Source: Cellulophaga sp. HaHa_2_95 (GTDB lineage: Bacteria; Bacteroidota; Bacteroidia; Flavobacteriales; Flavobacteriaceae). From it: a stretch of 64,000 nt of DNA. The translations under genes and the position numbers were made by a program. The notes under the pieces were generated by a model, which was not told where the DNA came from, did no database searches, and worked only from the letters and a program-made list of their open reading frames with translations. Position 1 is the stretch's first letter. Each line of letters starts with the position of its first letter. The DNA lies in assembly GCF_019278565.1 (NCBI RefSeq), contig NZ_CP058988.1, positions 3,100,001 to 3,164,000 on the forward strand, written 5' to 3'. This document shows, one piece after another, positions 33,598-54,766 of the stretch.

Positions 33598-34728
33598 ATG
33601 GAAAAAGGCAGAAATGTTACATTAAAACACCTCTTAATTAAAGAAAAACGTTTTATCGGCTTGCAGTTTAACACCGATAAAGTTATTCATTCACTTGTAA
33701 AACAATTGCCAGATGTAAAATGGAGCAACACTTACAACATGGCTTACATTGTGAATAATAAAGAAAACTTAAACCTGATTTTTGATTTATTTACCGGTGT
33801 CGTTTGGGTTAATTGCAACCATTTTTTTGACAAAAAAGTATCCAAAGAAAATAACGAGCCTATTAATATTGCTTGGTTCAGGACAAGACAACTTCCCAAG
33901 GCGTATAGAGTTTGCCCTAATAGTTATTTAGACAAACTAGAGCTAAAAAAATATGCAAATAATACCGTAAGAACATACGTATCAAGTTTTGAGGCATTTA
34001 TTAATTATTATCATAGCGCGGAATTAATTTCTCTTAATGAAAGTGATGTTAGAGCATATCTGTTGGTATTAATTCAAGATAAAAAATCTAATTCGTACAT
34101 AAACTCTGCTATAAACAGTATAAAGTTTTATTACGAATCTGTTCTTGGTATGCCTAACAGGTTTTACGAAATAGAAAGACCTAGAAAAGAAAAGAAGTTG
34201 CCAAAAGTACTTGCTAAAGAAGATGTATTTGATATTATAGCACATACAAACAACTTGAAACACAAATGTATAGTTAGTCTTTTATACTCCTCCGGAATAC
34301 GTAGAAATGAATTAATTAATTTAAAAATTTCGGATATAGACAGTAGACGAATGTTAATAAGGATTGAATCTGCAAAAGGGAATAAAGACCGTTACACCTT
34401 ACTCTCACATTCGCTCCTGAAAGACTTACGAACGTATTATAAGCAATATAAACCTGAAAAGTATCTAATAGAAGGTATGTATGGAAAACAATATTCTGGT
34501 CAAAGCATTGGAAAGATAGTACGTAACGCAGCCCAAAAAGCAGGTATTAAAATTATAGTAACACCGCATATGCTTAGACACAGTTTTGCTACTCATTTAT
34601 TAGAAGCAGGTACGGATATAAGACAAATTCAGGTTTTACTTGGCCATAGTTCTACTACAACAACTGAAATATATACTCATGTTGCTACTACCACTTTTAA
34701 AAAAATAAAAAACCCTCTTGATTCTTAG
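33598..34728 (+). CDS. Tyrosine recombinase of the cassette array (integron-integrase-like, without the IntI-specific domain)
   Basis: 376 residues with all catalytic residues: Arg235 (YSSGIRRNEL), Lys260 (SAKGNKDR), His324 and Arg327 (TPHMLRHSFATHL), His350 (LLGHSS) and Tyr359 (TEIYTHV). The C-terminus FKKIKNPLDS resembles the VRSPLD ending of IntI. The roughly 16-20-residue insertion that marks classical IntI before the HxxR motif is absent (YLIEGMYGKQYSGQSIGKIVRNAAQ runs straight through). An extra N-terminal domain (residues 1-90, LKHLLIKEKRFIGLQFNTDKVI) precedes the core-binding domain (107-185). It lies immediately upstream of the first cassette junction and is the natural candidate to move the cassettes. 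Confidence 0.9.
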   Translation: MEKGRNVTLKHLLIKEKRFIGLQFNTDKVIHSLVKQLPDVKWSNTYNMAYIVNNKENLNLIFDLFTGVVWVNCNHFFDKKVSKENNEPINIAWFRTRQLPKAYRVCPNSYLDKLELKKYANNTVRTYVSSFEAFINYYHSAELISLNESDVRAYLLVLIQDKKSNSYINSAINSIKFYYESVLGMPNRFYEIERPRKEKKLPKVLAKEDVFDIIAHTNNLKHKCIVSLLYSSGIRRNELINLKISDIDSRRMLIRIESAKGNKDRYTLLSHSLLKDLRTYYKQYKPEKYLIEGMYGKQYSGQSIGKIVRNAAQKAGIKIIVTPHMLRHSFATHLLEAGTDIRQIQVLLGHSSTTTTEIYTHVATTTFKKIKNPLDS

Positions 34729-34742
34729 AAAAATATAAAAGA

Positions 34743-34766
34743 TATAATGAACATATGTTCATTATA
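34743..34766. promoter_or_regulatory. 24-bp perfect palindrome beside the first cassette junction (candidate attI element)
   Basis: The 24 bases are their own reverse complement; the half-site is TATAATGAACAT. It starts 14 bp after the recombinase stop and ends 5 bp before the G|TTGTAGTGA junction at 34772/34773. In an integron this is the place of attI. It could bind the recombinase or a dimeric regulator. It is too A/T-rich and tail-less to be a convincing terminator. Confidence 0.6.
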
Positions 34767-34794
34767 CAATTGTTGTAGTGAATTTAAAAAAATA

Positions 34795-35331
34795 ATGCAG
34801 AAGGACTTAAAAATTAAACACAACGCGAAATCCTTCTCTTCTAGAATTGGACATTTTATACTTTTACTAATCTCTATACTTCTAATATTTCTTATTCTTT
34901 TCTTATTCAAACAACAACTTCAAAACCTAACAAGTTTCATGGGAATTTTAACCTTGGTATTTGGAGGTTTAATTGGTTATAAAATTTGGCAAAATAAATT
35001 ATACGTGGTGGACGTTGAATCTGACTCAAATATTATCAAAATCAGATACTACGACAAAAATGTTGAGCATAAAATTAGTTCAGATATTAAGATGGCTGAG
35101 GTTAGATTAAAAAACACTAGTTCAAGAGCTGGATTTGATTGCGAATTAAAATTGAGAATTGACAACAAAAACTATGTCATTACGGACACTTTTGACTGGT
35201 CACTTTCTGAAATGAAATTACTTTTTGAGTATATCAAGTATTTCAAGAATGAATTACTAACGGAAAAAGAAAAATTTAACCTCTCTAGAATGACGGAGAA
35301 AATAAAAAAAACTCACTACAACAATGCCTAA
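34795..35331 (+). CDS. Cassette 1: two-span membrane protein, unknown
   Basis: 178 residues from the ATG at 34795, 23 bp after the junction; an earlier in-frame ATG at 34747 lies inside the palindrome and before the junction, so it cannot belong to the mobile cassette. Two hydrophobic segments (FILLLISILLIFLILFLF and SFMGILTLVFGGLIGY) precede a soluble beta-rich domain. The last residues (HYNNA) are encoded by the start of the attC-like site. The family is unknown. Confidence 0.75.
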   Translation: MQKDLKIKHNAKSFSSRIGHFILLLISILLIFLILFLFKQQLQNLTSFMGILTLVFGGLIGYKIWQNKLYVVDVESDSNIIKIRYYDKNVEHKISSDIKMAEVRLKNTSSRAGFDCELKLRIDNKNYVITDTFDWSLSEMKLLFEYIKYFKNELLTEKEKFNLSRMTEKIKKTHYNNA

Positions 35332-35505
35332 ACGTAATGCGGACTTTAAGGCTAAATCGAATGGTCTGTGTATATTTACTAAGTCGCTAAATCTTATGGA
35401 TTTAGCTTTGAAACAAAAAAAATAAAACTAAACAATAAGCTTTAGCTTCGTGCTCAGACGGAAACGAAAAGTTTCCTTGCCTCCGCACTACGCTTAGCCT
35501 TACCG
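35313..35505 (+). repeat. attC-like site 1 (193 bp)
   Basis: It starts with TCACTACAAC, complementary to the start of cassette 1, and ends at G|TTGGC. The arms CGTAATGCGGA and TCCGCACTACG pair imperfectly. Inside are the hairpin GCTAAATC/GATTTAGC after AAGTC and a second hairpin GGAAAC/GTTTCC. The right half (35417-35499) is identical to that of site 9. Confidence 0.8.
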
Positions 35506-35524
35506 TTGGCAATAATTTAAAAGA

Positions 35525-36073
35525 ATGAAAACTGCATTATCTGTTTTTGTATTTATGATACTTTTTTTGAGTTGTAAAGACGAAAGTAATGTTCAAAAAC
35601 CTAAAAGCGGGAATGAACACCTTATCGTTATGCCAGGGATTGGAACGGAGAAATTTGTAGTCGGAAAAACTAAAATTAAAAACATAATAACCGAACTTGG
35701 AAAGCCCGAAAAATTTACTCAAGGAATAATCGATTACAGAAACAAAGAGGCCGCATTTACAAATAGTTATTACTATACAAAATACGGAATGACTTTTGGC
35801 ACTGAAACTCTGGAATCAAAAGGACAGGACATTGAAAATGCAATTATAAGAGTTATCATTTTTGATGAAAATTCAAACGCAAAAACATTAGAGGGACTTG
35901 CGATGGACGGCATAGCAGGTAAAATCAATTATGTTTATGGAAAACAAGATGAAGATAGAACGCCTAGGTCAGACTTACCATATTTTCATTATAGAAAAAA
36001 AGGTTTGACGGTTAAAATAAATCCTGAAACGAAAAAGGTTAGTGAATTTGAAATTTATGAACCGCACGAATAA
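35525..36073 (+). CDS. Cassette 2: lipoprotein of unknown function
   Basis: 182 residues, starting 20 bp after the junction. A lipoprotein signal (MKTALSVFVFMILFLSCKDE) is followed by a compact domain (GTEKFVVGKTKIKNIITELGKPEKFTQGIIDY...YYTKYGMTFGTE) resembling small SmpA/OmlA-like outer-envelope lipoproteins in layout. No family is named with confidence. Confidence 0.75.
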   Translation: MKTALSVFVFMILFLSCKDESNVQKPKSGNEHLIVMPGIGTEKFVVGKTKIKNIITELGKPEKFTQGIIDYRNKEAAFTNSYYYTKYGMTFGTETLESKGQDIENAIIRVIIFDENSNAKTLEGLAMDGIAGKINYVYGKQDEDRTPRSDLPYFHYRKKGLTVKINPETKKVSEFEIYEPHE

Positions 36074-36078
36074 AAAAC

Positions 36079-36271
36079 TATTGCCAACAAAACCTATAAA
36101 CAATACGGGCTTAGGGCTTAATCGCAAGGTTTGTGTATTTTTATGAAGTCCGCAAAATCTTTGGGATTTTGCTTTAAACAATAAAAAGAAAAAACAAAAC
36201 AAAAAGATTTTGCTATGTGCGTGGCGGAAAGCAAACGCTAGTTTGCTTCCGTACTGTTCATAGCTCAAACG
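36079..36271 (+). repeat. attC-like site 2 (193 bp)
   Basis: It starts with TATTGCCAAC, the complement of the cassette 2 start, and ends at G|TTGTGTGCA. It contains AAGTCCGCAAAATCTTT with the local partner GATTTTGC and a distant partner AAAGATTTTGC, plus the hairpin GGAAAGCAAAC/GTTTGCTTCC. Confidence 0.8.
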
Positions 36272-36275
36272 TTGT

Positions 36276-36836
36276 GTGCAACCTAAAAAACTAGAATTGA
36301 CAGATAAAAATATTTTCGAAAAAGCAGTTAAAAAGTATGGGCAGACTTTCGAAACATATGGTTTTCCGATTTCAGAATTAAAAACTAGGTTTGAAGAAAG
36401 TACAAACCAAAAAAACTACGCAAACACAGCTGACCTTGTTTGGTCTCTATTCCAAGAATTGTTATTGAAAGCTGGACAACAGTCTAAAACTGAATATGAA
36501 TTCTACGAAGGACAATGGAAAATTTATGCCGCAATGTTGGACTTCCGAAGGAAGACGGAAAAATCAAAAGCAAATGAAATTCTACAATTACATTTAAAGG
36601 CTTATGTCCAAATGTCCAGTGCACAGAGTACGTTAAATTTGAAGTGCGAAATAATTTCTGGTGCCTGTTGTGAATATTGCAACTCTCTTAATGGACAAAA
36701 ATTTGAAATAAATGAAGTCCTTGATAAACAATTTTTGGGATCTGAAAATTGCACGAATGAAAGAGGTTGTAATTGCTGCTACTCTTTGATTCCCGAAAGA
36801 GATTCTAACGGAAAACTAATATTGAATTCAAAATAA
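36276..36836 (+). CDS. Cassette 3: Cys-rich protein, unknown
   Basis: 186 residues from a GTG that lies inside the recombination core (GTTGTGTGCA); a TTG at 36297 is the alternative start. The C-terminal part has clustered cysteines (GACCEYCNSLNGQKFE, then CTNERGCNCCYSLIP), a likely zinc site reminiscent of the C-terminal domain of phage head-morphogenesis proteins (C-x2-C-SLNG...). The function is unknown. If the GTG is used, cassette movement would leave the first codons unchanged, because the core travels with the cassette. Confidence 0.65.
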   Translation: MQPKKLELTDKNIFEKAVKKYGQTFETYGFPISELKTRFEESTNQKNYANTADLVWSLFQELLLKAGQQSKTEYEFYEGQWKIYAAMLDFRRKTEKSKANEILQLHLKAYVQMSSAQSTLNLKCEIISGACCEYCNSLNGQKFEINEVLDKQFLGSENCTNERGCNCCYSLIPERDSNGKLILNSK

Positions 36837-36840
36837 AGGC

Positions 36841-37032
36841 TGCACACAACAAACCCTATAATTAATGCGGACTTATTTCTTATTGATAAGGTCTGTGTAT
36901 ATTTATAATGTCGCTAAATCTGTTGGATTTAGCTTTGGATAAACAATAAACAAATCAAAACCAAAAGCTTTAGCTTAGCGCATAGCTAGAAATCCGTCGG
37001 ATTTCTTCGCCGCACTAATCATAGCCCAAGCG
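36841..37032 (+). repeat. attC-like site 3 (192 bp)
   Basis: It starts with TGCACACAAC (12 of 13 bases match the complement of the cassette 3 start) and ends at G|TTGTATGTC. It has the local hairpin GCTAAATC/GATTTAGC and the hairpin AGAAATCCG/CGGATTTCT near the right end. Confidence 0.8.
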
Positions 37033-37058
37033 TTGTATGTCATTAGGAAAAACAAATT

Positions 37059-37655
37059 ATGGGATTAGATTTAGCTTTATTAGCAGTACCAAAAGAAGCT
37101 GAAAATATTCTAAAAAAAGCTGAACGTAAAATAGATACGGAGTATTCCGATATAATTTTTCATCTTCCAAGAGCTTTTCAAGATGATTTTCAGGATTTTG
37201 GACATTCTGACTGGATTGAATTTAAAAATGACGCTCAAGATTTAGTGAAAAATTACCCTGAAGGAAATTTTGACTCTAAGTTCTATATTGATACAAATAG
37301 AACGTATGGAGTTCTTGATTATTTAATTGCTCAAAGAGAAAATGTAGGTATCAATGATTCGAATTCCTTTTTTTATGATGGAATTAAATTTGAAAATTGC
37401 AAATCTGGTCAAGGGTTTAGTTTAATATATTGGGATTTAAATGTTCTACAAAAGAAAAAGAAAATTTTAGATTCTTTATCATTTGAAAAACTTTATACAT
37501 TCTATGATTTTAGAAAAATGATTGATGAAGGAGTCTATAAAATTGAACAAGTGAATGAAAATATTGAAGAATTACAAAATGTATTTATTGAAGTTAAAAA
37601 GTTTTTAAAATATGCAATTGAATTAAAAGGTTATGTGTTGGTATTGAAAAGTTAA
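37059..37655 (+). CDS. Cassette 4: hypothetical protein, first of two near-identical copies
   Basis: 198 residues, soluble, starting 26 bp after the junction. MGLDLALLAVPKEAENILKKAERK begins it; the middle is acidic (YPEGNFDSKFYIDTNRTYGVLDYLIA) and the C-terminus is helical. No known family is recognised. A second copy at 45838-46434 differs at two residues only (Ile/Ser in HSDWIEF and Asp/Asn in FYIDTNR). Confidence 0.75.
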   Translation: MGLDLALLAVPKEAENILKKAERKIDTEYSDIIFHLPRAFQDDFQDFGHSDWIEFKNDAQDLVKNYPEGNFDSKFYIDTNRTYGVLDYLIAQRENVGINDSNSFFYDGIKFENCKSGQGFSLIYWDLNVLQKKKKILDSLSFEKLYTFYDFRKMIDEGVYKIEQVNENIEELQNVFIEVKKFLKYAIELKGYVLVLKS

Positions 37656-37660
37656 AACGC

Positions 37661-37850
37661 CATACAACACTATATATAGCAAATTGGGCGATTATTGCTT
37701 AATCCAAAGGTTGTTGTCTATTTGCAAAGTCGCCAAATCTTTTGATTTGGTATTAAAAGTAAAAAGTTAAAACAAAATACAAAAGATTTGGCTTGTGGCT
37801 AATCCGAAAGTAATCGCTTATTTTCTGCCCAACTTGCCATATATTTAACG
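37661..37850 (+). repeat. attC-like site 4 (190 bp)
   Basis: It starts with CATACAAC and ends at G|TTGTGCATA. The outer arms at 37673-37689 and 37827-37843 are complementary at 15 of 17 positions. An inner perfect 13-base pair, GCCAAATCTTTTG with CAAAAGATTTGGC, competes with the local hairpin CCAAATC/GATTTGG. Confidence 0.85.
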
Positions 37851-37883
37851 TTGTGCATAATGCGGAAATCGTGCTAAACATCA

Positions 37884-37987
37884 ACATTTGAACTAAAAAA
37901 GCCAACGCGCAAACAGCACATTTATTTTTTTGCCAACGCGAAAAGCCAACGCTTAAAAAAACAAAAGAGCTGTTTCTTTGCCAACGC
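37884..37987 (+). repeat. GCCAACGC octamer cluster before the metal operon
   Basis: Four copies of GCCAACGC lie at 37901, 37932, 37945 and 37980. One more lies at 43453 and a variant GCCGACGC at 43526, beyond the other end of the operon. A 14-base direct repeat (ACATTTGAACTAAA at 37884, ACATCTGAACTAAA at 43536) also brackets the operon. Together these mark a nested insertion boundary inside the cassette or leftover recombination sites. Confidence 0.55.
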
Positions 37988-38048
37988 TAAATCCGTTCTT
38001 GACAATCGGAATAAAAAACTTTGCAACACCATTGCATTGAAATTTATT

Positions 38049-38056
38049 TATCTTTG
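38049..38056 (+). promoter_or_regulatory. -7 promoter element of the metal-resistance operon
   Basis: TATCTTTG matches TAnnTTTG exactly. A TTTG at 38020-38023 could be the -33 box, with a spacer slightly longer than ideal. The first start codon is only 6 bp away, so the transcript would have almost no leader. Confidence 0.55.
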
Positions 38057-38061
38057 TGCCA

Positions 38062-38379
38062 ATGAAATTTATAACTATCATACTATCATTATTAATTCTT
38101 GGTTTGTCAATCAAACCTTGTTCTGACGGAAATAATGCCGAAGACCAGCATCAAGAAGAAATAACTGCTGAACATGATCATCAAAATGATAGTGATGATA
38201 CTTGTCCAATAACTTGTATTTGTAATTGTTGCGGAATCGCAATTACATATGAACCAATTCAAACTTTTGAATTAGGTATTAATAGTCAAATCTCTACAGA
38301 AATATTATCTGTTTATCAATCAATCTACAGATTTAATTTTCATTCCAATATCTGGCAACCGCCACAATTGATTAGCTAA
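38062..38379 (+). CDS. Small exported Cys/His-rich protein of a metal-resistance operon (DUF6660-like)
   Basis: 105 residues from the ATG at 38062. A signal peptide (MKFITIILSLLILGLSIKPCSDG) is followed by a His/Asp/Glu-rich stretch (HQEEITAEHDHQNDSDD) and a Cys cluster (CPITCICNCCG). It resembles the short DUF6660-type proteins that precede metal-related TonB receptors in Bacteroidota. It probably binds metal in the periplasm; this is an inference from composition and position. Confidence 0.65.
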   Translation: MKFITIILSLLILGLSIKPCSDGNNAEDQHQEEITAEHDHQNDSDDTCPITCICNCCGIAITYEPIQTFELGINSQISTEILSVYQSIYRFNFHSNIWQPPQLIS

Positions 38380-38430
38380 ATTATCGACCAATTGTCAAAA
38401 AAATTTAGGTAATTAATTTTTACATCTTCA

Positions 38431-40617
38431 ATGAATAAATACATATTGAGCGCAATGCTCACAATTATAACGTGCTTTTCTATAAAAGCGCAAACATCTG
38501 ATATACAAATAAAGGTAACTTCAGAATCCGAAAACGAACCGTTATTTGGAGCAACAGTATATTTTGAGGAATTAGAAAAAGGAGCAGTAACCGATTTTGA
38601 CGGAATTGCAACTTTCAACGAAATTCCGAATGGCGAACATATTATCATAGTTTCTTTTTTAGGCTTTGAAACTCTAAAAACAACTATTCAAATCCCAAGT
38701 AATTCAGACTTGATTTTCAAATTAAAAAGTGGAGGAAACGAATTGGACGAAGTTGTATTACAATCTTCAAGAAGTACAAGAACCGTAAAAAAAATTCCAA
38801 CGAGAATTGAATTTATTGGAGTTGAGGAATTGGGAGAAAAAGCAATTATGAATCCAACCAATATTTCAATGGTGCTTCGTGAAAGCACAGGAATACAAAT
38901 GCAACAAACATCTTTAAGTAGTGGAAGTACAAACATTAGAATTCAAGGTCTTGATGGTCGTTACACACAACTTTTGAGAGATGGATTTCCACTTTACGGA
39001 GGCTTTTCAAGTGGTTTGAGTATTTTACAAATTCCACCTTTAGATTTGCAACAATTTGAAATTATTAAAGGAAGTTCATCTACACTTTATGGTGGTGGAG
39101 CAATTGCAGGTTTAATAAATATGGTGTCAAAAACACCTGACGAAGAACCTGCTTTAGATATTATGCTTACACAAACACAAGCTTTAGGAAGTACTACAAA
39201 TGTATTTTACAGCAAACGGAATGAAAAGTTTGGTATTTCGCTTTACGGTTCAGGTCATTATCAAAAAGCTTATGACCCAGAAGATGATGGTTTTAGTAAT
39301 TTACCAAAAACTAAATCTATTTCATTTAATCCAAAATTCTTTTATTATCCTTCTGATAAAACTACGTTTTGGTTTGGTCTAAACGGAACTTATGACGATA
39401 GAATTGGTGGAGACATTACTAAAATAGAAAGTGGCGAAAATGGAATTCATCAATACACAGAGGAAAACATTTCAAAAAGATTGAGTAGTCAAGCAGTTTA
39501 CAAAACTCAAATAGATTCTATTAGTTCTTTAAACATTAAAAATAGTTTATCCTTTTTCGATAGAAATTTAACGATTCCCGATTTCAATTTTGATGGTAAA
39601 CAAACCAACACTTTTACGGAAATCACTTATCAAAGAGAAACATCAAGAGCAGATTGGATTTTTGGAGCAAATTTATATACTTCAAACTTTGACGAAAATG
39701 ATAATGCAACTTTACAACGTGACCAAAAAGACATCACTTACGGAATGTTTGCTAACAATATTTATGACCTTTCCGAGAATTGGATTTTAGAAACTGGATT
39801 GCGAGCAGATTACAATACTGATTTTGGTTTTTTTCCACTTCCAAAAATTTCATTGCTTTATAAAAATGATAGCGGATTTTCAAGCAGAATTGGTGGTGGT
39901 TTAGGTTACAAAATTCCAGATATTTTTACAGAAGAGGCTGAATTTATAAACTTTGAAAATGTACTTGGCATTGATAAATCTTCATTAAAGGCAGAGCGTT
40001 CTTATGGTGTAAATCTTGATTTCAACTATCAAACACGTTTATTTGAAAATATTGGCTTTTCAATTAATCAACTTTTCTATGTCACAGCAATTAACAACGG
40101 ATTGTTATTGAATAGTACAAATAATGGTTTGTTTGCATTTGAAAATGCAACTGATGAAATTTTAAGCAAAGGCGCAGAAACAAATATAAAGTTTACTTAT
40201 AAAGATTTTAGATGGTTTTTAAATTATGCACTTATAGACACTAAATTGAACTATTTGGCAGGAAATCCACAAAAACCATTAACTGCAAAACATAACGCAG
40301 GAAGTGTTTTGATGTACGAATCTGATAAATGGAGAGTTGGTTACGAAACTTTTTATACAGGAAAGCAGTTTTTATCAAATGGAACAGAAACAACAGATTT
40401 TATAACAATGGGATTATTGTTAATGCGAAACTTTAAATTTGGTAGTGCTTTTGTGAATTTTGAAAATTTTACAGACAGACGACAAAGCAGATTTTCGCCA
40501 TTAGTTCTGCCACCACACGAAAATCCAGAATTTCCAGAAATTTACGCACCAACAGACGGATTTATTTTTAGTGTAGGAATTATTATTAAACCATTTGGAA
40601 ACGAAGACCACGATTAA
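38431..40617 (+). CDS. TonB-dependent outer-membrane receptor, metal-linked
   Basis: 728 residues. Signal peptide (MNKYILSAMLTIITCFSIKAQ), carboxypeptidase-like domain (ENEPLFGATVYFEELEKGAVTDFDG), plug (IQGLDGRYTQLLRDGFPLYGG; GSSSTLYGGGAIAGLINMVSK) and a 22-strand barrel. It is smaller than SusC-type receptors and has no SusD partner. Its place between the Cys/His-rich protein and a Fur-type regulator suggests metal or metallophore uptake, or metal handling linked to the ATPase. Confidence 0.9.
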   Translation: MNKYILSAMLTIITCFSIKAQTSDIQIKVTSESENEPLFGATVYFEELEKGAVTDFDGIATFNEIPNGEHIIIVSFLGFETLKTTIQIPSNSDLIFKLKSGGNELDEVVLQSSRSTRTVKKIPTRIEFIGVEELGEKAIMNPTNISMVLRESTGIQMQQTSLSSGSTNIRIQGLDGRYTQLLRDGFPLYGGFSSGLSILQIPPLDLQQFEIIKGSSSTLYGGGAIAGLINMVSKTPDEEPALDIMLTQTQALGSTTNVFYSKRNEKFGISLYGSGHYQKAYDPEDDGFSNLPKTKSISFNPKFFYYPSDKTTFWFGLNGTYDDRIGGDITKIESGENGIHQYTEENISKRLSSQAVYKTQIDSISSLNIKNSLSFFDRNLTIPDFNFDGKQTNTFTEITYQRETSRADWIFGANLYTSNFDENDNATLQRDQKDITYGMFANNIYDLSENWILETGLRADYNTDFGFFPLPKISLLYKNDSGFSSRIGGGLGYKIPDIFTEEAEFINFENVLGIDKSSLKAERSYGVNLDFNYQTRLFENIGFSINQLFYVTAINNGLLLNSTNNGLFAFENATDEILSKGAETNIKFTYKDFRWFLNYALIDTKLNYLAGNPQKPLTAKHNAGSVLMYESDKWRVGYETFYTGKQFLSNGTETTDFITMGLLLMRNFKFGSAFVNFENFTDRRQSRFSPLVLPPHENPEFPEIYAPTDGFIFSVGIIIKPFGNEDHD

Positions 40618-40619
40618 TT

Positions 40620-41036
40620 ATGAAAACAATTGAAGAATTTTTAGAATCAAAAAATATTCGAGTAACTGCAATGCGTTTACTAATATATAAGTTCCTTGCC
40701 GAAAAACAAGTTGCAGTTACATTAAGTGATATAGAAAATGCTTTTGAGAAAGCAGATAGGACAACATTATACAGAACTATAAAAACATTTGAAGAAAAAG
40801 AAATTGTGCATCAAATAGACGATGGCACAGGAATTACGAAATATGCTTTGTGTGAAAAGGGTTGTAATTGTGAGATTGAAACCGATTTGCATTTACATTT
40901 TCATTGTAATAACTGCAACGAAACCATTTGTTTAACAGAACATAAAATCCCTCAAATAAAAGTGCCTGATGGATTTGTTTCAGAAAACGTAAACTTAGTT
41001 GTAAAAGGCATTTGCGATAAATGTAGCGGACAATAA
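40620..41036 (+). CDS. Fur family metal-dependent transcriptional regulator
   Basis: 138 residues. A winged helix (IRVTAMRLLIYKFLAEKQVAVTLSDIENAF, ADRTTLYRTIKTFEEKEIVHQI) precedes a metal-binding dimerisation domain with the His/Cys ligands HLHFHCNNCNETICL and CDKCSGQ. It starts 2 bp after the receptor stop. It likely represses or senses for this operon; whether the metal is zinc, iron or cobalt cannot be read directly. Confidence 0.9.
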   Translation: MKTIEEFLESKNIRVTAMRLLIYKFLAEKQVAVTLSDIENAFEKADRTTLYRTIKTFEEKEIVHQIDDGTGITKYALCEKGCNCEIETDLHLHFHCNNCNETICLTEHKIPQIKVPDGFVSENVNLVVKGICDKCSGQ

Positions 41037-41089
41037 ATGCACTTCCATTGCACTTACTATTTAAGTACTTTTATTCAAAATTAGATGAT

Positions 41090-41449
41090 ATGAAGTTTAA
41101 TACTAAAATACCTAAACATCTTAAACAGGCGTATAACGAAGAACTAAAACAATACAGTTTCTGTTTAGAAAATGAGCAGTTTGGAAATGCTTGGTATCAT
41201 TTAGAACGCAGTCATATCATAGGTCAATCTTACCCAATAGAACATACCTACTCACATTGGTTGATGCTAAAATTTGGGTTTCGTCAAAGAAATGTAAAAG
41301 AAGTCTTCGGTCAAATAATCAGATTACTTGTTGGTGGTTGGAAATCATTTATAAACCACGTTCCAAGAGGAAATACTGGTGGTACAAATGTGCCACCTTT
41401 ACAACGTATGCCTATTCCAAATGACATTCAAAAAATATTCAATTGTTAA
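41090..41449 (+). CDS. DUF3703 family protein
   Basis: 119 residues from the ATG at 41090. FNTKIPKHLKQAYNEELKQYSFCLENEQFGNAWYHLERSHIIGQSYPIEHTYSHWLMLKFG matches DUF3703, a His-rich helical family found in metal-resistance clusters of many bacteria. Conserved His and Glu residues could bind metal. Its stop overlaps the ATPase start by one base (TAATG). Confidence 0.8.
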   Translation: MKFNTKIPKHLKQAYNEELKQYSFCLENEQFGNAWYHLERSHIIGQSYPIEHTYSHWLMLKFGFRQRNVKEVFGQIIRLLVGGWKSFINHVPRGNTGGTNVPPLQRMPIPNDIQKIFNC

Positions 41450-45782: not shown

Positions 45783-45837
45783 AACTAATATTAATCTGTA
45801 GCCGTATTTTAGGACGTGACATTAGGAAAAACAAATT

Positions 45838-46434: not shown

Positions 46435-46439
46435 AACGC

Positions 46440-46629: not shown

Positions 46630-46647
46630 TTGTAAAACATTTGGTAT

Positions 46648-47950: not shown

Positions 47951-48511
47951 GAACAGCTAAAAAAAGTGAGTGACCATTATACATCCATAGTTTACGAAAA
48001 AGCTAATCTGGCAGATTCCCAAGAATTGGCGGATAGAATTATTAGCTTTTTAACTGAAAAGAAAATTATTCATAAAGAACTCTCAGATTGCGTTTTAGGT
48101 TCAACTGGACATAAACCAGCAGAAAATTTCGGTTCTATTCTTGAAAAACAATACGAAGGATTTTTGGACTCAAAACCAAATGGACTTGAAATCATAACTG
48201 AAAGAAGTGTATTTGAAAACGGTGGAAATGGTCTAGAGCAAGTTAATTGTCCAAATTGTGGACAAAATCAAATTGAAGAAGACTGGGGCAGCGCATTGGA
48301 GAATTGGTATGACAACACAGAGTCGGACTTAGTGAAATGCTCAAACTGCTTATCCGAAAACCCAATAACTAAGTTCAATTTTGAGCCAAATTGGGGATTC
48401 GGGGACTTTGGGCTAATCTTTTGGAATTGGGGTAAATTCAAGAGTGAATTTTTAATCGAATTAGAAAAGGTAATCGGAACGGAATTGACAATAGTTTACG
48501 GCAAACTCTGA
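47939..48511 (+). CDS. Cassette 8: zinc-ribbon protein, unknown
   Basis: 190 residues. The start codon and first residues (MSLNEQLKK) lie in the IS481-family right end, so the native N-terminus may be different. Two CxxC pairs (VNCPNCGQNQIEEDWGSALENWYDN...VKCSNCLSENP) make a zinc ribbon, followed by a Trp/Phe-rich part (FEPNWGFGDFGLIFWNWGKF). No family is named. Confidence 0.65.
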   Translation: MSLNEQLKKVSDHYTSIVYEKANLADSQELADRIISFLTEKKIIHKELSDCVLGSTGHKPAENFGSILEKQYEGFLDSKPNGLEIITERSVFENGGNGLEQVNCPNCGQNQIEEDWGSALENWYDNTESDLVKCSNCLSENPITKFNFEPNWGFGDFGLIFWNWGKFKSEFLIELEKVIGTELTIVYGKL

Positions 48512-48523
48512 CGGAAAAGCCAG

Positions 48524-48543
48524 TTGCTAACAAAACCTAAACG
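48524..48543 (+). repeat. Collapsed attC-like remnant (20 bp)
   Basis: After the cassette 8 stop the sequence reads TTGCTAACAAAACCTAAACG and the next cassette begins at once with TTACCCAC. The AACAAAACCTA part matches the left end of site 2; about 170 bp of the site is missing. This looks like an internal deletion of an attC-like site. Confidence 0.6.
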
Positions 48544-48570
48544 TTACCCACAATTATAAAAACAACATAG

Positions 48571-49695
48571 ATGAAATTTAAAATATTGATATTATTTACA
48601 ATTGTATGCTTTTGCAAAACCTATGCACAAGAATATGAAGTGAATTTCAATAAAGAATATATCAAGGAAAATGATGAGAATGTTTCAATTGAAATTAATG
48701 AAATTCAAGAACTGATATATATAATTTTTGCGAATACAGAATTTGCCAAGGAAAATCCAAGAATGGTAAAAACTGACACAGAATATTATAATAAAATGAT
48801 TGAGCATTTTTCAGAATATTCAGACTTACCAATAGTCAAAAAATTCGATAGCTTATTAGAAGAAAATTTACTCTACTATTTTGTGTTAGCTGGAAACGCA
48901 TACGGTTATAAATTTAAACACAAAAATATCGTGCCAACTGGAATATATGACTTTCCCGCAAAAGGCGTTGGAAACCTTGAAGTGGAATCAAATCCAATAC
49001 CTGAATTAATAAAAGATTTAGAACAATATGCCGAAAAATCAAAGTATCGTAAATTCTTTAAGCAAAAAAAAGAATACTATAGTTCTTTAAAAACAGATTA
49101 TCAAAACTATGCCCAAATTGACCTTCAGACAAAATGGCTACAAAATAGATTTGATTATAGAATAAATAGCTTTAGAGTTTTGACTTCGCCATTAATTTCC
49201 TCAATGAACGCTACCCAAACTTTCGAAGATAACGATTTTAAAGAAACATTACTTTTTTTGCCGACTATTAAAAACAACGAGGCTTTATCTAAAAAATATA
49301 ATAAAGCCATTAATACACGTGTGATTTTCACAGAAATTGACCATAATTACGTTGGTAAAGTCAGCGAAAAATTTACAGAAAGTATAGATAGTATTTTTGG
49401 AGAAAGAGAGAAATGGGTAGATGTAAATAATAAAGGAACACAATATTATCCAACACCAATAAAAGTATTTGACGAATATCTAACTTGGGGTTTGTTTATA
49501 TTATATGCTTATGACAATTATGAACAAGAAACATTAAGTGAGGTAACTGATAATATAAATGGAGTATTAATTGAGCGAGGTTTTCCAAAAGCAAAAGAAT
49601 TTAATTCAAGGCTTTTAGAAATTTACAAAGTCAGCGAAAATGCTCAAATGTCCGATTTGTATCCAGATATATTAGAATGGTGTGCGCAACAATAA
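48571..49695 (+). CDS. Cassette 9: secreted protein, possibly DUF4932-like
   Basis: 374 residues with a signal peptide (MKFKILILFTIVCFCKTYAQ). Helical throughout, with FSEYSDLPIVKKFDSLL near the start and TRVIFTEIDHNYVGKVSEKFTE in the middle; the Glu/His pair there may be a metal site. The layout recalls DUF4932 proteins, but I am not certain. It begins 28 bp after the junction at 48543. Confidence 0.6.
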   Translation: MKFKILILFTIVCFCKTYAQEYEVNFNKEYIKENDENVSIEINEIQELIYIIFANTEFAKENPRMVKTDTEYYNKMIEHFSEYSDLPIVKKFDSLLEENLLYYFVLAGNAYGYKFKHKNIVPTGIYDFPAKGVGNLEVESNPIPELIKDLEQYAEKSKYRKFFKQKKEYYSSLKTDYQNYAQIDLQTKWLQNRFDYRINSFRVLTSPLISSMNATQTFEDNDFKETLLFLPTIKNNEALSKKYNKAINTRVIFTEIDHNYVGKVSEKFTESIDSIFGEREKWVDVNNKGTQYYPTPIKVFDEYLTWGLFILYAYDNYEQETLSEVTDNINGVLIERGFPKAKEFNSRLLEIYKVSENAQMSDLYPDILEWCAQQ

Positions 49696-49697
49696 CT

Positions 49698-49888
49698 GTG
49701 GGTAACAATGTATATAAAAAATAGCGCGAGCAGTTGCCAACACAAAGGTTCGGGCACTTCTTTAAGGTCGCCAAATCTTTTGATTTGGCTTTAGAACAGA
49801 AAAAATAAAACTAAACAATAAGCTTTAGCTTCGTGCTCAGACGGAAACGAAAAGTTTCCTTGCCTCCGCACTACGCTTAGCCGAACCG
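49698..49888 (+). repeat. attC-like site 9 (191 bp), chimeric
   Basis: It starts with GTGGGTAAC, complementary to its cassette start, and ends at G|TTGTGTGTA. The left half resembles site 4 (GGTCGCCAAATC and GATTTGGC); the right half, 49800-49882, is identical over 83 bp to site 1 (35417-35499). Confidence 0.82.
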
Positions 49889-49916
49889 TTGTGTGTAATT
49901 CAAAATAAATGTAAAA

Positions 49917-50423
49917 ATGATTAATTATACAAATATAATCCCTAACGAAAAATTTAATTTTGCTATACCAAACCCCGATTATAATAATGTAAATGATTTT
50001 TTAAAAGAATCTAAATCACAGGATAATGATTTGATTGAAGGAATTATAAAATCAAATTTATTAACTGGAAAAAACATTATCGTTTTTAAAATCACAGATT
50101 CTAGAATTGGTGTGTTAGGCAGAGGTCTTTCTGGTTTATCAATGGCTGATAGTAACTTAATATCTCTAAGCCTATTTGATTATGACTTAAATAATAAAGT
50201 TGATACGATTAAGGTTTTTAACATGCATCCTGCTAAAGGACATGGTTATGGTACAATTTCTTTTTCAAATAATAGTAAAAGTAAGTCAATGATTATATTT
50301 TTTATAGATTCCGATTATGACAAATGGAATGAGGATTTTAATAAATCTGAGTCCTATATTAGCGAGATTCAAAAGTTTCTTAATGTCGATAATGTAAAAA
50401 CAGATACAGGATATAATTGCTAA
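49917..50423 (+). CDS. Cassette 10: hypothetical soluble protein
   Basis: 168 residues, starting 29 bp after the junction, no signal or membrane span. MINYTNIIPNEKFNFAIPNPDY opens it; alternating strands (GKNIIVFKITDSRIGVLGRGLSGLSM, TIKVFNMHPAKGHGYGTISFS) follow. The family is not recognised. Confidence 0.7.
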   Translation: MINYTNIIPNEKFNFAIPNPDYNNVNDFLKESKSQDNDLIEGIIKSNLLTGKNIIVFKITDSRIGVLGRGLSGLSMADSNLISLSLFDYDLNNKVDTIKVFNMHPAKGHGYGTISFSNNSKSKSMIIFFIDSDYDKWNEDFNKSESYISEIQKFLNVDNVKTDTGYNC

Positions 50424-50428
50424 AAAAC

Positions 50429-50545
50429 TACACACAACAATTTACTGAGAATCAAACTTAAGATGTATAACCGCAATAACGGCTTTTGCGCTAAATCCGA
50501 AAAGTAAGCGTTTTTTTTATACGCTACGTTCCATACACAAGACCG
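50429..50545 (+). repeat. attC-like site 10 (117 bp, short class)
   Basis: It starts with TACACACAAC and ends at G|TTCTGCACA. The right part (ATCCGAAAAGTAAGCG, CGCTACGTTCCATACACA) matches the right ends of sites 5 and 11; the central AAGTCGCC block is missing. Confidence 0.75.
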
Positions 50546-50569
50546 TTCTGCACAATTTAAAACAACATT

Positions 50570-51184
50570 ATGGAAGAATTTTGGAATAATAGATATAAGG
50601 AAAAAGAGTACGCATATGGAGAAAAACCAAACGCATTTTTTAAAGAAACTATCGAAAAACTTAAACTAAACGGGAAATTACTATTACCAGCTGAAGGGGA
50701 AGGAAGAAATGCTGTTTATGCCTCGAAAAAAGGAATTGATGTAGTCGCATTTGATATAAGTTCAGAAGGTAAAATTAAAGCTCAAGAGTTAGCTGAAAAA
50801 CAAAATGTAACTATTGATTATCGAGTTGGAGAATTTGAAAAACATAATTTTGAATTAAATAGCTTTGATGCCCTTGGACTAATTTTTGCTCATTTTCCGA
50901 AAAATAAGACAATATTGCACGAGCAAATGGCTGAGCTAATAAAACCAAATGGTTATATTTTTTTAGAAGGGTTTAGTGCGAATAATATTTCTTATAGAGA
51001 GCGAAACCCTAAAATTGGCGGTCCGACAAATTTAGAAATGTTATACACAGTTGAAGAGATGAAAACTACCTTCAAAAACTTTGAAGTCATTCTTCTAGAA
51101 GAAAAAGAAATAAAATTAAATGAAGGAAGTTTTCACAACGGAATAGCGAGTGTAATCAGATATATCGGAAAAAAAACTACGTAG
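50570..51184 (+). CDS. Cassette 11: class I SAM-dependent methyltransferase
   Basis: 204 residues of the TehB/thiopurine-methyltransferase-like type: FWNNRYKEKEYAYGEKPNAFFKE, the SAM motif LLLPAEGEGRNAVYASKKGIDVVAFDIS, then ALGLIFAHFPKNKTILHEQM and LIKPNGYIFLEGFS. Likely substrates are small compounds such as tellurite or selenium species; unproven. Its cassette start (GTTCTGCACA) has no matching complement after the gene, so the 3' end may have been exchanged. Confidence 0.85.
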   Translation: MEEFWNNRYKEKEYAYGEKPNAFFKETIEKLKLNGKLLLPAEGEGRNAVYASKKGIDVVAFDISSEGKIKAQELAEKQNVTIDYRVGEFEKHNFELNSFDALGLIFAHFPKNKTILHEQMAELIKPNGYIFLEGFSANNISYRERNPKIGGPTNLEMLYTVEEMKTTFKNFEVILLEEKEIKLNEGSFHNGIASVIRYIGKKTT

Positions 51185-51187
51185 ATC

Positions 51188-51357
51188 ATACACAATTAAT
51201 TACTTAAACAAAGTAAAAGCATATTTGGAAAGTCGCCAATTTTTTAAATTTCACGATTTCCAATAAAAAAATATATAGTAAAATTTAAAAATAGGGCTTG
51301 TGTTTTATCCGAAAAGAAACTGCTTATTTTCAGCGCTACTTTTCATATATAGAGCCG
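51188..51357 (+). repeat. attC-like site 11 (about 170 bp, left end uncertain)
   Basis: It contains ATATTTGGAAAGTCGCCAAT, the conserved internal block, and the conserved right end (ATCCGAAAAGAAACTGC, CGCTACTTTTCATATA), ending at G|TTAGCTTTT. The left end (CATACACAATTAATT) does not match the start of cassette 11. Confidence 0.65.
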
Positions 51358-51414
51358 TTAGCTTTTATTATGAAAACATTGACACAACTTTAAAATGTTA
51401 TTCCTAGTTATTGC

Positions 51415-51422
51415 TATCTTTG
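51415..51422 (+). promoter_or_regulatory. -7 promoter element of the DoxX/DsrE/DoxD cassette
   Basis: TATCTTTG, the same octamer as at 38049, stands 6 bp before the first start codon of this multi-gene cassette. No clear -33 box at the right distance is visible. Confidence 0.5.
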
Positions 51423-51428
51423 CAAGAG

Positions 51429-51806
51429 ATGAAAGAAAAGCTAGAAATTAAAAAACTTTATTCAGTCCTGTCTTTACTTGGACTGGTATTGTTGCTTTTA
51501 CTTTCACCTTGTAAGGTCAGGAATTTTATTCAAGCTGAAGTAGGTTTACCTCAAACTAATGTTTTAAATAAAGGTCAAGCCACAATTTCAACAGAAAGTT
51601 GTGTTGCCTTTGATGTTGCCGATATTAATCATTCATCTTCAACATCCGTTAAAATAGCACTTGACTTCTTTGTTAATGAGACGTTATTCACTATTCATTT
51701 TCCAGTTCATTCAAACACTACTAATACACTTCGAATCAGTAAATCAAAACTGATTTCTTCCATACCTCTCTACATTTTATATCAAAACATTCAGGTCTAT
51801 TCGTAA
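51429..51806 (+). CDS. Cassette 12: small exported or membrane-anchored protein
   Basis: 125 residues from the ATG at 51429. One hydrophobic N-terminal segment (LYSVLSLLGLVLLLLLSP) with a Cys just after (PCKVRNFIQAEVGLPQ), then a short beta-rich part. Similar short proteins precede DoxX-type genes in flavobacteria. The function is unknown. Confidence 0.6.
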   Translation: MKEKLEIKKLYSVLSLLGLVLLLLLSPCKVRNFIQAEVGLPQTNVLNKGQATISTESCVAFDVADINHSSSTSVKIALDFFVNETLFTIHFPVHSNTTNTLRISKSKLISSIPLYILYQNIQVYS

Positions 51807-51866
51807 TTGATTTTCTAAAAGCAGTTGTTATTTCTGCTATATATCAATCAATTACAAATATCTAAA

Positions 51867-52353
51867 ATGAAATTTCTAGTAAAAAATACTTGAAGTTAGC
51901 TACAGATCTGTAGCTATACTTCGCATTCTGCTTAGCTTAATTTTCATAATAGCAAGCACTAGCTATTTTTTTAATCCCGCAAAAACCGTGAGCAAATTAG
52001 AAAATTCCCCAATGGGTTTTATTGGAAATATACTAGGAACACCAGAAATAGCTGTAATTCTATCCAGAATTGTAATGCTAATTGTAGGTGTTTCATTACT
52101 TCTAGGTATCATAACCCAAATAGCTTCAATGGTACTAATAGCCATTGTAATTCCTATTACACTTACTGCACAAATTGGACAATTACCAACTCTAGGTCTA
52201 CTTTTTAAGAATATAGCCCTACTTGGAGAACTTCTTTTTTTTAGTATTAATCAAAAATTAAACAACAATGAAAAACTCAATATTATTTATAACAACAATG
52301 CTCCTTTTACTATTTGGAACATATCAATTACAAGCACAAAATATCAACGCTGA
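51867..52353 (+). pseudogene. DoxX-like membrane protein with apparent frameshift
   Basis: Starting at the ATG at 51867 the frame stops after eight codons (MKFLVKNT). One frame over, from about 51883, an open frame reads LEVSYRSVAILRILLSLIFIIASTSYFFNPAKTVSKLE (first 20 residues contain the expected first membrane span) and continues as DoxX (PEIAVILSRIVMLIVGVSLLLGII). The shift lies at a run of six A (51881-51886). It is either a real frameshift or a sequencing error. The 3' end overlaps the DsrE-like gene by 86 bp. Confidence 0.6.
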
Positions 52354-52690
52354 AATGAATAATTACTTAGTACTTTCAAAAAACATAAAACAAATAAAAC
52401 CTATTTCAATGACAGCCAATGCATTAGCAAAGGAAGATGGAAAAAAATACGGAGCGTTTTATGTAATCATCTGTGGTAAAACAGTAACTCAAATTAATGA
52501 TAATTCAGATTTTAATACTTTATTGGAAGAGGCTAAAGCCCAAAATGTGAAAGTGTTTGTTTGTGGAATTTCTCTTTCAAAGTTCAACATTATTCCAGAG
52601 ACATTGCCAAATACTCTTGAAGTAATTCCTAATGGCATATTATACGGGTTACAACTTACAAAAAGAGGTTTTATCACACTTACAATATAA
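52268..52690 (+). CDS. Exported DsrE-family protein
   Basis: 140 residues with a signal peptide (MKNSILFITTMLLLLFGTYQLQAQ). The DsrE-like core has GAFYVIICGKTVTQI, LLEEAKAQNVKVFVCGISLSKFNI and a C-terminal GILYGLQLTKRGF. Two Cys (residues about 70 and 99) could carry sulfur. The DsrE family transfers sulfur in thiol metabolism, which suits DoxD/DoxX neighbours. Confidence 0.75.
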   Translation: MKNSILFITTMLLLLFGTYQLQAQNINAEMNNYLVLSKNIKQIKPISMTANALAKEDGKKYGAFYVIICGKTVTQINDNSDFNTLLEEAKAQNVKVFVCGISLSKFNIIPETLPNTLEVIPNGILYGLQLTKRGFITLTI

Positions 52691-52696
52691 TAAACT

Positions 52697-53713
52697 ATGA
52701 AAAATATTAGCATAAAGAACGATGCTGGGCTATTAGCTTTAGCACTAAGATTAGTTGTTGGTTGGACTTATTTTTCTGCCTTTTGGAGAAGAGTAGCGTT
52801 AGAAAATAAACTCGATCCAGACGCAGCCGGGTATATTGGAGAAAAATTCAATGCATTTTTACCCAATGCTTTAGGTATAAAACCAATTATTCAGTATTTA
52901 GTAGAGAACCCTGATATGCTTTGGGTCAATATGGTAATTTTCACGATTGTAGAAGGTATAGTAGGTTTATTTATAATGTTCGGTTTGTTTACGCGAATTA
53001 TGAGTATCGGTGTTTTTGGATTAGCAATGGGAATTCTTTTAGGTTCAGGATGGATTGGGACAACTTGTCTTGACGAATGGCAAATAGGAGTGTTAGGAAT
53101 CGCTGCAGGTTTTACCTTATTTCTAACGGGAAGCGGCAAATACTCTGTGGACAATTATTTAATAAAAAATAATTATGCAATCACCAAAAAAAAATGGTTT
53201 ACTTGGTTAGGTTCGGGTATTTTACCAATTAAAGAAAGTGTTTTTCCTAAAGTTGTATTTACGGGTTCTATCATTATTTTTGGAATGACCTTAATGACCA
53301 ATCAAGTATTCCACGGTGGCGTTTGGGGAACACTTCATAATAAATCGGTAAAACCAAAACTGAGAATTACCGAAGGTAAAATAGCCAATAATAAATTAAG
53401 TTTTGATGTTTTCAGAACGGAAGGTGTAGATGTTTATGGTTCTTGGGTAATTGGTATTGAATTAAATGATGAACTTAACAATTCTGTATTCAAATATGGC
53501 CAGGAAGAATTAGCAACAATGAACAAAAAGAGTATTTCAAACTATTATGTTGCTAGAATAAAACCAGGAAACCATAGTTTGATTGTGCCTTTAGGAGCAA
53601 AAGCAAAACTAAATTTAGAAAATGAAAATTTATCAAGTTTGCCTAACGGAACCTATACTCTTAAAATCACAGACATTAGTGGAGCTTATTGGGAACATCA
53701 GATTGAAAAATAA
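52697..53713 (+). CDS. DoxD/DoxA-like (thiosulfate:quinone oxidoreductase-type) membrane protein
   Basis: 338 residues. The N-terminal part (LALALRLVVGWTYFSAFWRRVAL, VNMVIFTIVEGIVGLFIMFGLFTRIMSIGVFGLAMGILLG, GFTLFLTGSGKYSVDNYL) is DoxD-like with about five spans. The C-terminal part after residue 215 (GVWGTLHNKSVKPKLRITEGK...YTLKITDISGAYW) is DoxA-like. In Acidianus these are separate subunits of thiosulfate:quinone oxidoreductase; the fusion is common in Bacteroidota. It ends the cassette. Confidence 0.8.
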   Translation: MKNISIKNDAGLLALALRLVVGWTYFSAFWRRVALENKLDPDAAGYIGEKFNAFLPNALGIKPIIQYLVENPDMLWVNMVIFTIVEGIVGLFIMFGLFTRIMSIGVFGLAMGILLGSGWIGTTCLDEWQIGVLGIAAGFTLFLTGSGKYSVDNYLIKNNYAITKKKWFTWLGSGILPIKESVFPKVVFTGSIIIFGMTLMTNQVFHGGVWGTLHNKSVKPKLRITEGKIANNKLSFDVFRTEGVDVYGSWVIGIELNDELNNSVFKYGQEELATMNKKSISNYYVARIKPGNHSLIVPLGAKAKLNLENENLSSLPNGTYTLKITDISGAYWEHQIEK

Positions 53714-53714
53714 C

Positions 53715-53841
53715 AAAAGCTAACAATATATAAAAGCAATAGCGGTTCGGGTGCAAACTCAAACCGTTTTCGCATTTAATTAAGTATATTGTTTACCGAA
53801 AAGAAGGAGCAATTTATCCACTATTACTCTAATACCAAACG
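53715..53841 (+). repeat. attC-like site 12 (127 bp, short class)
   Basis: It starts with AAAAGCTAAC, the complement of the start of cassette 12 2.36 kb upstream, and ends at G|TTACCGCAC. GGTTCGGGTGC/AAACCG-type inner pairing and the left motif AACAATATATAAAA are shared with other sites. Confidence 0.75.
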
Positions 53842-53853
53842 TTACCGCACAAT

Positions 53854-54435
53854 TTGAAAACAAAATATAAACTCAACAATAAATTACTAAATAAGCTCCT
53901 AAAGCAAAACTTACGGATGCTTATACTTTTGGTGGTTTTTTGTTTTATAAATTGGATATGGTTTAGTAGCAGAGATATTGAATCTTTTTGGCTGCTTTTT
54001 CTAATTATAATTGGAGTTTTATTAGTATTTAACTTACCCTCATTGGTCCTATTTTTAAACTATTATAAAGAGAATAAGTATACTAATTTTGAAATAGTTG
54101 AAAAACCCAATTCAATTAAAATAAACCAAAATGGAATTATTAAAACTTACATGCTGAATGATTGTAAAAAATCAACATATCATTTAGCTTACAATTATAG
54201 AAATACTATCGACAATAGAGGGAGAGACTTTATGTTTTTTTCGGATTTTGGATATTGGGATTTGCAATTTGAAAATGGAGACCGATATTACTTGACAAAT
54301 CTCCTGAACGACTTTGTTCATCAAGCTCCAATTATTCGAAAAACAAAATATCGATTCAGATTGTTTCCGTATATAAAAAAATTGGATTCAAAAGAAGGTG
54401 CGCAATTAAAACTTATACCGAAAAAATATTTATAA
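53854..54435 (+). CDS. Cassette 13: two-span membrane protein, unknown
   Basis: 193 residues from a TTG start 12 bp after the junction; the Met at codon 22 is an alternative. Two hydrophobic stretches (MLILLVVFCFINWIWF and FWLLFLIIIGVLLVFNLPSLVLFLNYY) precede a soluble domain (KPNSIKINQNGIIKTYMLNDCKKSTYHLAYNYR). The layout echoes the cassette 1 protein. No family is recognised. Confidence 0.65.
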   Translation: MKTKYKLNNKLLNKLLKQNLRMLILLVVFCFINWIWFSSRDIESFWLLFLIIIGVLLVFNLPSLVLFLNYYKENKYTNFEIVEKPNSIKINQNGIIKTYMLNDCKKSTYHLAYNYRNTIDNRGRDFMFFSDFGYWDLQFENGDRYYLTNLLNDFVHQAPIIRKTKYRFRLFPYIKKLDSKEGAQLKLIPKKYL

Positions 54436-54582
54436 TTTATGAACTCGACTCAAACGCAACTGTTATGCCGACGGACCTTTTAGCTACTTAATACAGAAGA
54501 AACAATCTTAACAGAATTTATGCCCATTTAATACGATATTGTAAAAAATACGTGTGGTCATAATACCTATGAAGTAATTCGG
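54436..54582. other. Non-coding stretch after cassette 13
   Basis: No gene is visible here. The complement of the cassette 13 start (expected TTGTGCGGTAAC) is absent, so the left end of the following site has been lost or exchanged. Confidence 0.5.
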
Positions 54583-54766
54583 GGTATGGTATATAATTTA
54601 ATGTTTTACGTATATTTATAAAGTCTGCAAAATTTTTCCGATTTTGCTCTGGAAACTAAAAATAAATCAAGACCAGCCTCGCCAGCAGGCAGGCAATAAG
54701 CTTTGACTTCGTGCACAGAAGGAAACTCAACCTTTCCCTGCCTCCAAACTACTTATAGTTTGAACG
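54583..54766 (+). repeat. attC-like site 13 (about 184 bp, left end uncertain)
   Basis: It has the conserved TATTTATAAAGTCTGCAAAA block with its hairpin (GCAAAAT, ATTTTGC), an extra GC-rich stretch (CGCCAGCAGGCAGGC), AAGCTTTGACTTCGTGC as in sites 1 and 9, and GGAAACTCAACCTTTCC. It ends at G|TTATGGGCA. Confidence 0.65.

Follow-up and report, generated by a model that had tools for sequence, protein, structure and literature searches.

The window analysed here, a stretch of 64,000 nucleotides (nt) from Cellulophaga sp. HaHa_2_95 (NZ_CP058988.1, positions 3,100,001 to 3,164,000 of the forward strand), carries a gene for a tyrosine recombinase of 376 amino acids (aa; 33598..34728, +), an attI-like site directly behind it (34729..34772, +) and, on the same strand, 13 cassettes that all run one way and each start at G|TT. 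The host genome is 4.54 Mb long in a single contig, and its closest named relative among the compared loci is Cellulophaga baltica DSM 24729, with a recombinase at 96%. A preliminary description of the window had placed a recombinase at the head of cassettes in single orientation, which was confirmed. It had also counted about 14 cassettes; 13 could be delimited, one of which is a duplicate (cassettes 4 and 7), and the array may pass 54766. Weak signs of its continuing to about 58480 come from two matches to the site model described below, at 56370-56497 (expectation value, E, 0.0027) and 58353-58481 (E 0.21). The former belongs to a possible cassette 14 (54766..56493, +), past the range first described, for which an own-end complement was searched and not found.

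Cassette boundaries were evaluated by comparing the start of each cassette with the reverse complement of its own end. An exact 10/10 agreement was obtained for eight of the 13 cassettes, all on the + strand and given here from the G of G|TT: cassettes 1 (34772..35504), 2 (35505..36270), 3 (36271..37031), 5 (37850..43781), 6 (43782..44499), 9 (48543..49887), 10 (49888..50544) and 12 (51357..53840). None of the 156 cross pairs of cassette ends reached 10/10 and three reached 9/10; furthermore, 0 of 100,000 permutations matched the observed sum of end agreement, in a test that used five boundaries 1-4 nt off. The earlier claim of nine cassettes whose start returns as its reverse complement at their own end holds because cassette 4 (37032..37849, +), correctly placed, matches 9 of 10. 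No own-end match was found in cassettes 7 (44500..46628, +) and 8 (46629..48542, +), which carry insertion sequence (IS) insertions, or in cassettes 11 (50545..51356, +) and 13 (53841..54765, +), which have no recognisable partner. Beyond the window, 105 of 129 neighbouring site pairs, drawn from the stronger site matches of 24 further loci, showed the cassette-end match, compared with 581 of 16,512 cross pairs. End complementarity is thus far above the cross-pair and permutation controls. In addition, the two ends of a cassette rebuild one attC site (R' and R''), and C precedes G|TT at all 13 internal junctions of the window, equivalent to G after AAC on the bottom strand.

In the attI-like site, a palindrome (34743-34766) is followed by AATTG|TT, with the crossover G|TT at 34772, directly 3' of the recombinase stop codon. 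Most of the related loci have a similar site after the recombinase and a different first cassette starting at G|TT. A perfect palindrome 3-6 nt ahead of G|TT was detected in 23 of 42 loci by a strict test, the remainder being imperfect or not called. Of 211 pairwise alignments spanning the recombinase and reaching attI, none extended 60 nt or more past G|TT, and in 144 the end fell between -15 and +25 nt of this point in both loci. About 25 of the remaining 67 include the window, whose single palindrome contrasts with the tandem pair of most close relatives. The window and C. baltica DSM 24729 share a left flank that is 96.5% identical over 6.5 kb, and their collinear homology (96.1%, 2169 nt) ends at attI, after which a different array follows. 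The array is therefore not fixed among related strains, and an attI adjoining the recombinase receives insertions at G|TT.

Sequence comparison also shows that whole cassettes have moved between genomes. Cassette 5, a 5.9-kb apparent metal-handling operon (TonB-type receptor, Fur-like regulator and P-type metal ATPase, named by eye from translations), stands first after attI in Aquimarina (locus L028), with 95.6% identity over 3237 nt, the same G|TT start and one internal difference. Moreover, one whole cassette lies within a 1275-nt stretch shared at 97.1% identity by a Flavobacteriaceae genome and a genome of another class; in the former it is the first cassette behind attI, and in the latter it is internal to the array. 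Both limits of the matching stretch fall no more than about 10 nt from G|TT junctions, and the flanks differ. Of 18 matches between cassette regions (400 nt or longer, 80% or higher), 10 begin near G|TT in both loci.

On the bottom strand, attC sites were placed at 35313..35514 (attC 1, of the long class, whose bottom strand folds), 36079..36280 (attC 2), 36841..37041 (attC 3), 37659..37859 (attC 4), 43589..43791 (attC 5), 44369..44509 (attC 6, short class), 46438..46638 (attC 7, a copy of attC 4), 49697..49897 (attC 9, chimeric), 50429..50554 (attC 10, with a model match on part of it, E 0.059) and 53715..53850 (attC 12). Their architecture was evaluated in 119 sites collected by cassette ends from the window and the related loci, with A required after AAC and C before GTT; five were left out for low L-box match and 114 kept. 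Because this filter fixes the four R-helix pairs (including one G.T), these carry no weight and only the L box counts. Mismatches between the L-box arms were wobble-compatible on the bottom strand in 251 cases and on the top strand in 10, alongside 141 transversions, and all 114 sites leaned to the bottom strand. The bottom strand was also more stable in 103 of 114 sites with DNA parameters and in 12 of 12 window sites with RNA parameters. Over 43 short sites, 98.0% of L-box cells were paired and 12 of 16 pairs showed compensatory changes, and sliding the partner as a control lowered pairing of the whole structure to 30-53%. The R box past AAC/GTT is supported by the own-end matches of the cassettes. 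These results indicate folding through R and L boxes with the bottom strand favoured.

On the bottom strand, two pairs of the L box are almost invariably G.T (in 39 and 43 of the 43 short sites) and correspond to C.A mismatches on the top strand. Among 69 sites of 100-150 nt, 61 have the wobble at position 7 and 62 that at position 12; the corresponding counts among 31 sites of 185-260 nt are 21 and 25, and in the size range of 150-185 nt (11 sites) the wobbles are found at other positions. The L helix is continuous in most of the 43 short sites, and an unpaired central spacer separates the R and L helices (about 5 nt vs. 2 nt, alignment A2). According to PMC2727003, classical attC sites have unpaired extra-helical bases on the L'' arm, and most have G after AAC on the bottom strand. 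Extra-helical G and T bases were absent from the L'' arm here, and the attC architecture proposed for this system is borne out in the form of paired G.T wobbles where classical sites have extra-helical bases.

Several sites of the window deserve separate mention. Site 8 (48526-48543, about 17 nt) is deleted or minimal and still gives a clean start for cassette 9. The 3' half of attC 9 is 91% like attC 1 and its 5' arm is of another type; since the site is chimeric, its L box pairs poorly. Site 4 shares 90-93% identity with sites at three further loci (L028, L032 and L053), and the adjoining gene bodies were not matched in that search. Sites may thus spread, or be kept alike, separately from genes.

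The recombinase matches NF040815 (site-specific tyrosine recombinase/integron integrase) with 227.6 bits, above the curated cut-off of 220, and TIGR02249 (integron integrase) with 206.5 bits in two pieces, below the cut-off of 265. Its gene is open, and its active-site residues are invariant across 33 aligned rows. The alignment with IntI rows confirmed that the IntI-specific insert near patch III is missing, as had been noted in the preliminary description. Consistently, the spacing from Arg box to HxxR is 91-92 residues in the window recombinase and nearly all measured relatives, compared with 133 in IntI, as measured in the 10 of 25 rows in which the motifs could be located; it is 96 and 98 in two Xer-like proteins of the host genome and 91 in a third. 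The C-terminal tail, IKNPLDS, was correctly described as IntI-like, IntI rows ending in a similar I-K-N/S-P-L-D type tail. The best sequence and fold matches among solved structures were XerA / archaeal Xer (5hxy, 4a8e), and a search of phage records gave one weak, partial match.

Two further parts are new to the system, namely an N-terminal domain of the recombinase and a CxxC protein encoded beside it. The N-terminal domain (residues ~6-80; 33613..33840, +) gave weak XPB-DRD/HARP-like matches in a fold search, and its sequence profile gave weak, implausible matches in the PDB; the XPB/HARP identity is a lead only, because eIF1-type folds score nearly as high and the PDB matches are implausible. 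The CxxC protein (127 aa; 33125..33508, -), which the preliminary description had left out, is divergent from and adjoins the recombinase, contains one CxxC and two further cysteines, looks zinc-finger-like by eye, and may be an accessory or regulator; a Pfam search with it gave no match. Its relatives lie just upstream of and divergent from the recombinase in 42 of 45 related loci, the three loci without it being a clostridial bin and two contig-end fragments. It also occurs beside several other recombinases, two of them on plasmids.

The distribution of sites was assessed with a model built from 43 short sites, 42 of them from the 45 related loci. All site counts are lower bounds because the model misses much of the long class: of the window sites, 1, 2 and 9 were not matched at E<=1, and 3 gave a truncated weak match. 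In the 45 loci, most of which include 10 kb on the 5' side, 145 model sites were found, 143 of them 3' of the recombinase and all of one polarity, and two on the 5' side. A model site followed the recombinase in 25 of the 27 loci with more than 1.5 kb downstream; the exceptions were L047, which is clostridial, and L042, whose sites are longer and were recognised from their ends. Sites also occurred in 22 of 24 further loci, of which 20 belong to genomes of the family and four to plasmids, and 222 of 223 sites lay on one strand per locus. In the genome searches over 40 genomes, only 17 candidates were scored in each.

With one genome per genus, 177 of 199 genera of the host's family were positive for the site model. 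A recombinase match at E<1e-40 was present in 126 of these genomes, and 125 of the 126 had sites, which argues against a recombinase found mostly without cassettes; of the 73 genomes without a close recombinase, 52 had sites and 21 did not. This split is a hand tally, in which two of the 22 site-less genomes were assigned by elimination. All 18 genomes of the host's genus carried both sites and a recombinase match at E<=1e-38. Complete genomes hold up to 138 model sites, several of them more than 100, and the host genome 13. Across the phylum, 73 of 198 genomes gave site-model matches, and three of them (L118, L119 and L120) have a recombinase (about 280-330 aa) that lacks the N-terminal domain and is divergent from the array. 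The proposal of a cassette system of Bacteroidota is supported with one refinement, that it is not confined to Flavobacteriia, related recombinases with similar sites occurring in other classes of the phylum.

Elsewhere in the host genome, further site matches, mostly clustered, were found at about 1.31, 1.95, 2.01-2.02 and 3.28-3.29 Mb; they resemble integrase-free attC clusters. Plasmids of Rufibacter tibetensis (L116), Chryseobacterium (L115) and Persicobacter (L114) also carry relatives of the recombinase, accompanied by one to three model sites, and one of these plasmids is typed as mobilizable. On Acinetobacter baylyi plasmid pJAT2044 (L113, L117), a recombinase fragment beside tet(X3), called xerD/tnpF elsewhere, is 52% identical to residues 146-375 of the window recombinase, and the stretch between fragment and gene has the attI layout, a palindrome then CTTG|TT. 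A cassette end behind tet(X3) was looked for and not found, so the link of tet(X3) to the cassette system is only suggestive.

Further cassette contents were identified as follows. Cassette 4 encodes a DUF1877 protein (attC by model, E 2e-10), cassette 6 a transglycosylase-like protein (PF00912; attC E 9e-28, a training row of the model), cassette 9 a DUF4932 protein and cassette 11 a methyltransferase; the attC of cassette 12 was matched at E 4e-11. Cassette 7 is a copy of cassette 4 (99.6% over 817 nt) whose 5' end is replaced by an IS3-family insertion (NF033516), and cassette 8 carries an IS481-like transposase gene, below the family cut-off. An Imm11-family immunity protein gene (57103-57696) lies close to the far end of the array.

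Judging from sequence, the locus is in all probability a gene-cassette platform that works like an integron, with a recombinase that integrates at attI and cassettes that are excised between attC sites; the proposed separate cassette system with its own recombinase and site architecture is supported. The recombinase would join an incoming circular cassette to attI just after its own gene, and would cut cassettes out between attC sites. Each attC would be used as a folded single strand, the bottom one, and attI is probably double-stranded, with the crossover at G|TT. New cassettes would enter at attI and push older ones away, so that small mobile genes would be stored and reshuffled in the array. 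In place of the extra domain of IntI, the N-terminal domain and the CxxC protein would help to handle folded DNA.

Some observations weigh against this interpretation. The evidence is of sequence only, from which we infer catalysis by the recombinase, and this enzyme lacks a domain described as necessary for integron recombination. In the window, 4 of 13 cassettes lack matched ends and some sites are degenerate, and 8 of the 18 cassette-region matches do not begin near G|TT in both loci. The folding test indicates that a strand is conserved as structure and is not proof of a substrate, and related sites are not independent. Moreover, 52 genomes have sites with no close recombinase detected, so arrays outlive or travel without the recombinase, or drafts miss it.

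The system is not an IntI integron, because its enzyme lacks two defining features and its site lacks one, and it is most likely a separate integron lineage missed by IntI-based searches. Secondary loss of the extra domain from the IntI of an ordinary integron, which would place the system within the IntI family, would explain the common fold, the similar tail and the two-piece TIGR02249 match of 206 bits. Some domain-less recombinases also group beside IntI (SH-like approximate likelihood ratio test, SH-aLRT, 84 and 93), and PMC8138268 reports that the IntI insertion is not fully conserved within its 'integron-like' tyrosine recombinase subgroup. We nevertheless consider such a loss unlikely. 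In a quick tree with three Xer outgroup rows, two of them on long branches, the 25 IntI rows formed one clade (SH-aLRT 100) that sits on a long branch and includes no domain-less row, and the window recombinase and its relatives fell outside it, in keeping with the recombinase lineage claimed at the outset. Furthermore, IntI was above cut-off in 57 of 198 genomes of the phylum, only one of them in the class of the host and none among the 19 listed genomes of its family, and the L-box features differ. Conversely, it is possible, though we would put it at somewhat below even, that domain-less recombinases are the older and larger integron stock across Bacteroidota, that IntI arose within it, and that in Flavobacteriia the IntI domain is replaced by the XPB-DRD/HARP-like N-terminal domain, by the CxxC protein and by attC sites in which G.T wobbles, rather than extra-helical bases, determine the strand used.

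Other explanations concern the activity and nature of the array. A former cassette system that is now an inactive relic could account for the two IS insertions and for one tiny and one chimeric site in the window; given an open recombinase gene with an invariant active site, the different array behind a 96% identical flank, recombinase and attI in C. baltica DSM 24729, and cassettes 95-97% identical across genera, this is improbable. Slightly less probable still is movement of the cassettes by another enzyme (host XerC/D or an IntI elsewhere) with the adjacent recombinase incidental. Sites in the 52 of 73 genomes without a close relative of the recombinase, nearly all with Xer-like matches, would fit that explanation; it is opposed by the sites that follow the recombinase in 25 of 27 loci, by their presence in nearly all recombinase-bearing genomes, and by the finding of no model site in short loci around 25 IntI genes of the same phylum or around four other recombinases of the host genome. 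Finally, the intergenic sequences are repeated, structured, about 70-250 nt long and present by the dozen in many genomes, as transposed repeats (of repetitive extragenic palindromic, REP, or miniature inverted-repeat transposable element, MITE, type) or RNA elements would be, rather than recombination sites. Such an origin is scarcely credible in view of cassette-specific ends that agree solely within a cassette, contents swapped at attI and whole-cassette transfer; in addition, an Rfam search of the array found no family above threshold and only a sub-threshold microRNA match.

A separate integron lineage would have several implications. The same kind of array occurs in most genera examined of the host's family, with a recombinase that lacks a part thought essential to integron enzymes. 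If the interpretation is correct, a large system of gene exchange in an abundant marine group escapes any search that depends on the IntI domain, and the essentiality of the extra domain for the use of folded attC becomes directly testable. The system would also offer a natural comparison for integron origins and is a possible source of genes, perhaps resistance genes, leaving Bacteroidota. In the literature covered, which left out bioRxiv and most subscription journals, no cassette arrays with a domain-less recombinase were described in Bacteroidota, and the accessible text of IntegronFinder 2.0 (PMC9024848) names one complete integron in Bacteroidetes proper, in Salinibacter.

Among known systems, XerA / archaeal Xer (NF040815; 5hxy, 4a8e) provides the best curated family match and the best solved-structure matches, but the window recombinase differs in its link to cassette arrays and in its integron-type tail. 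For domain-less members of the 'integron-like' subgroup of PMC8138268, the accessible text of that paper mentions no cassette arrays. With chromosomal (sedentary) IntI integrons, the system shares a recombinase beside attI, one-way cassettes, the G|TT crossover with C before it, R and L boxes, a bottom strand that folds better, the I-K-N/S-P-L-D type tail and large arrays. In contrast to these integrons, the window recombinase has no IntI insert and falls outside the IntI clade, and the L box forms an uninterrupted helix in which conserved G.T wobbles take the place of extra-helical bases. Moreover, attI is palindromic and lies 3' of the gene, with cassettes in the direction of the recombinase, and an extra N-terminal domain and a partner CxxC protein are present. 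The divergent array layout of classical integrons recurs in L118, L119 and L120, from other classes of the phylum.

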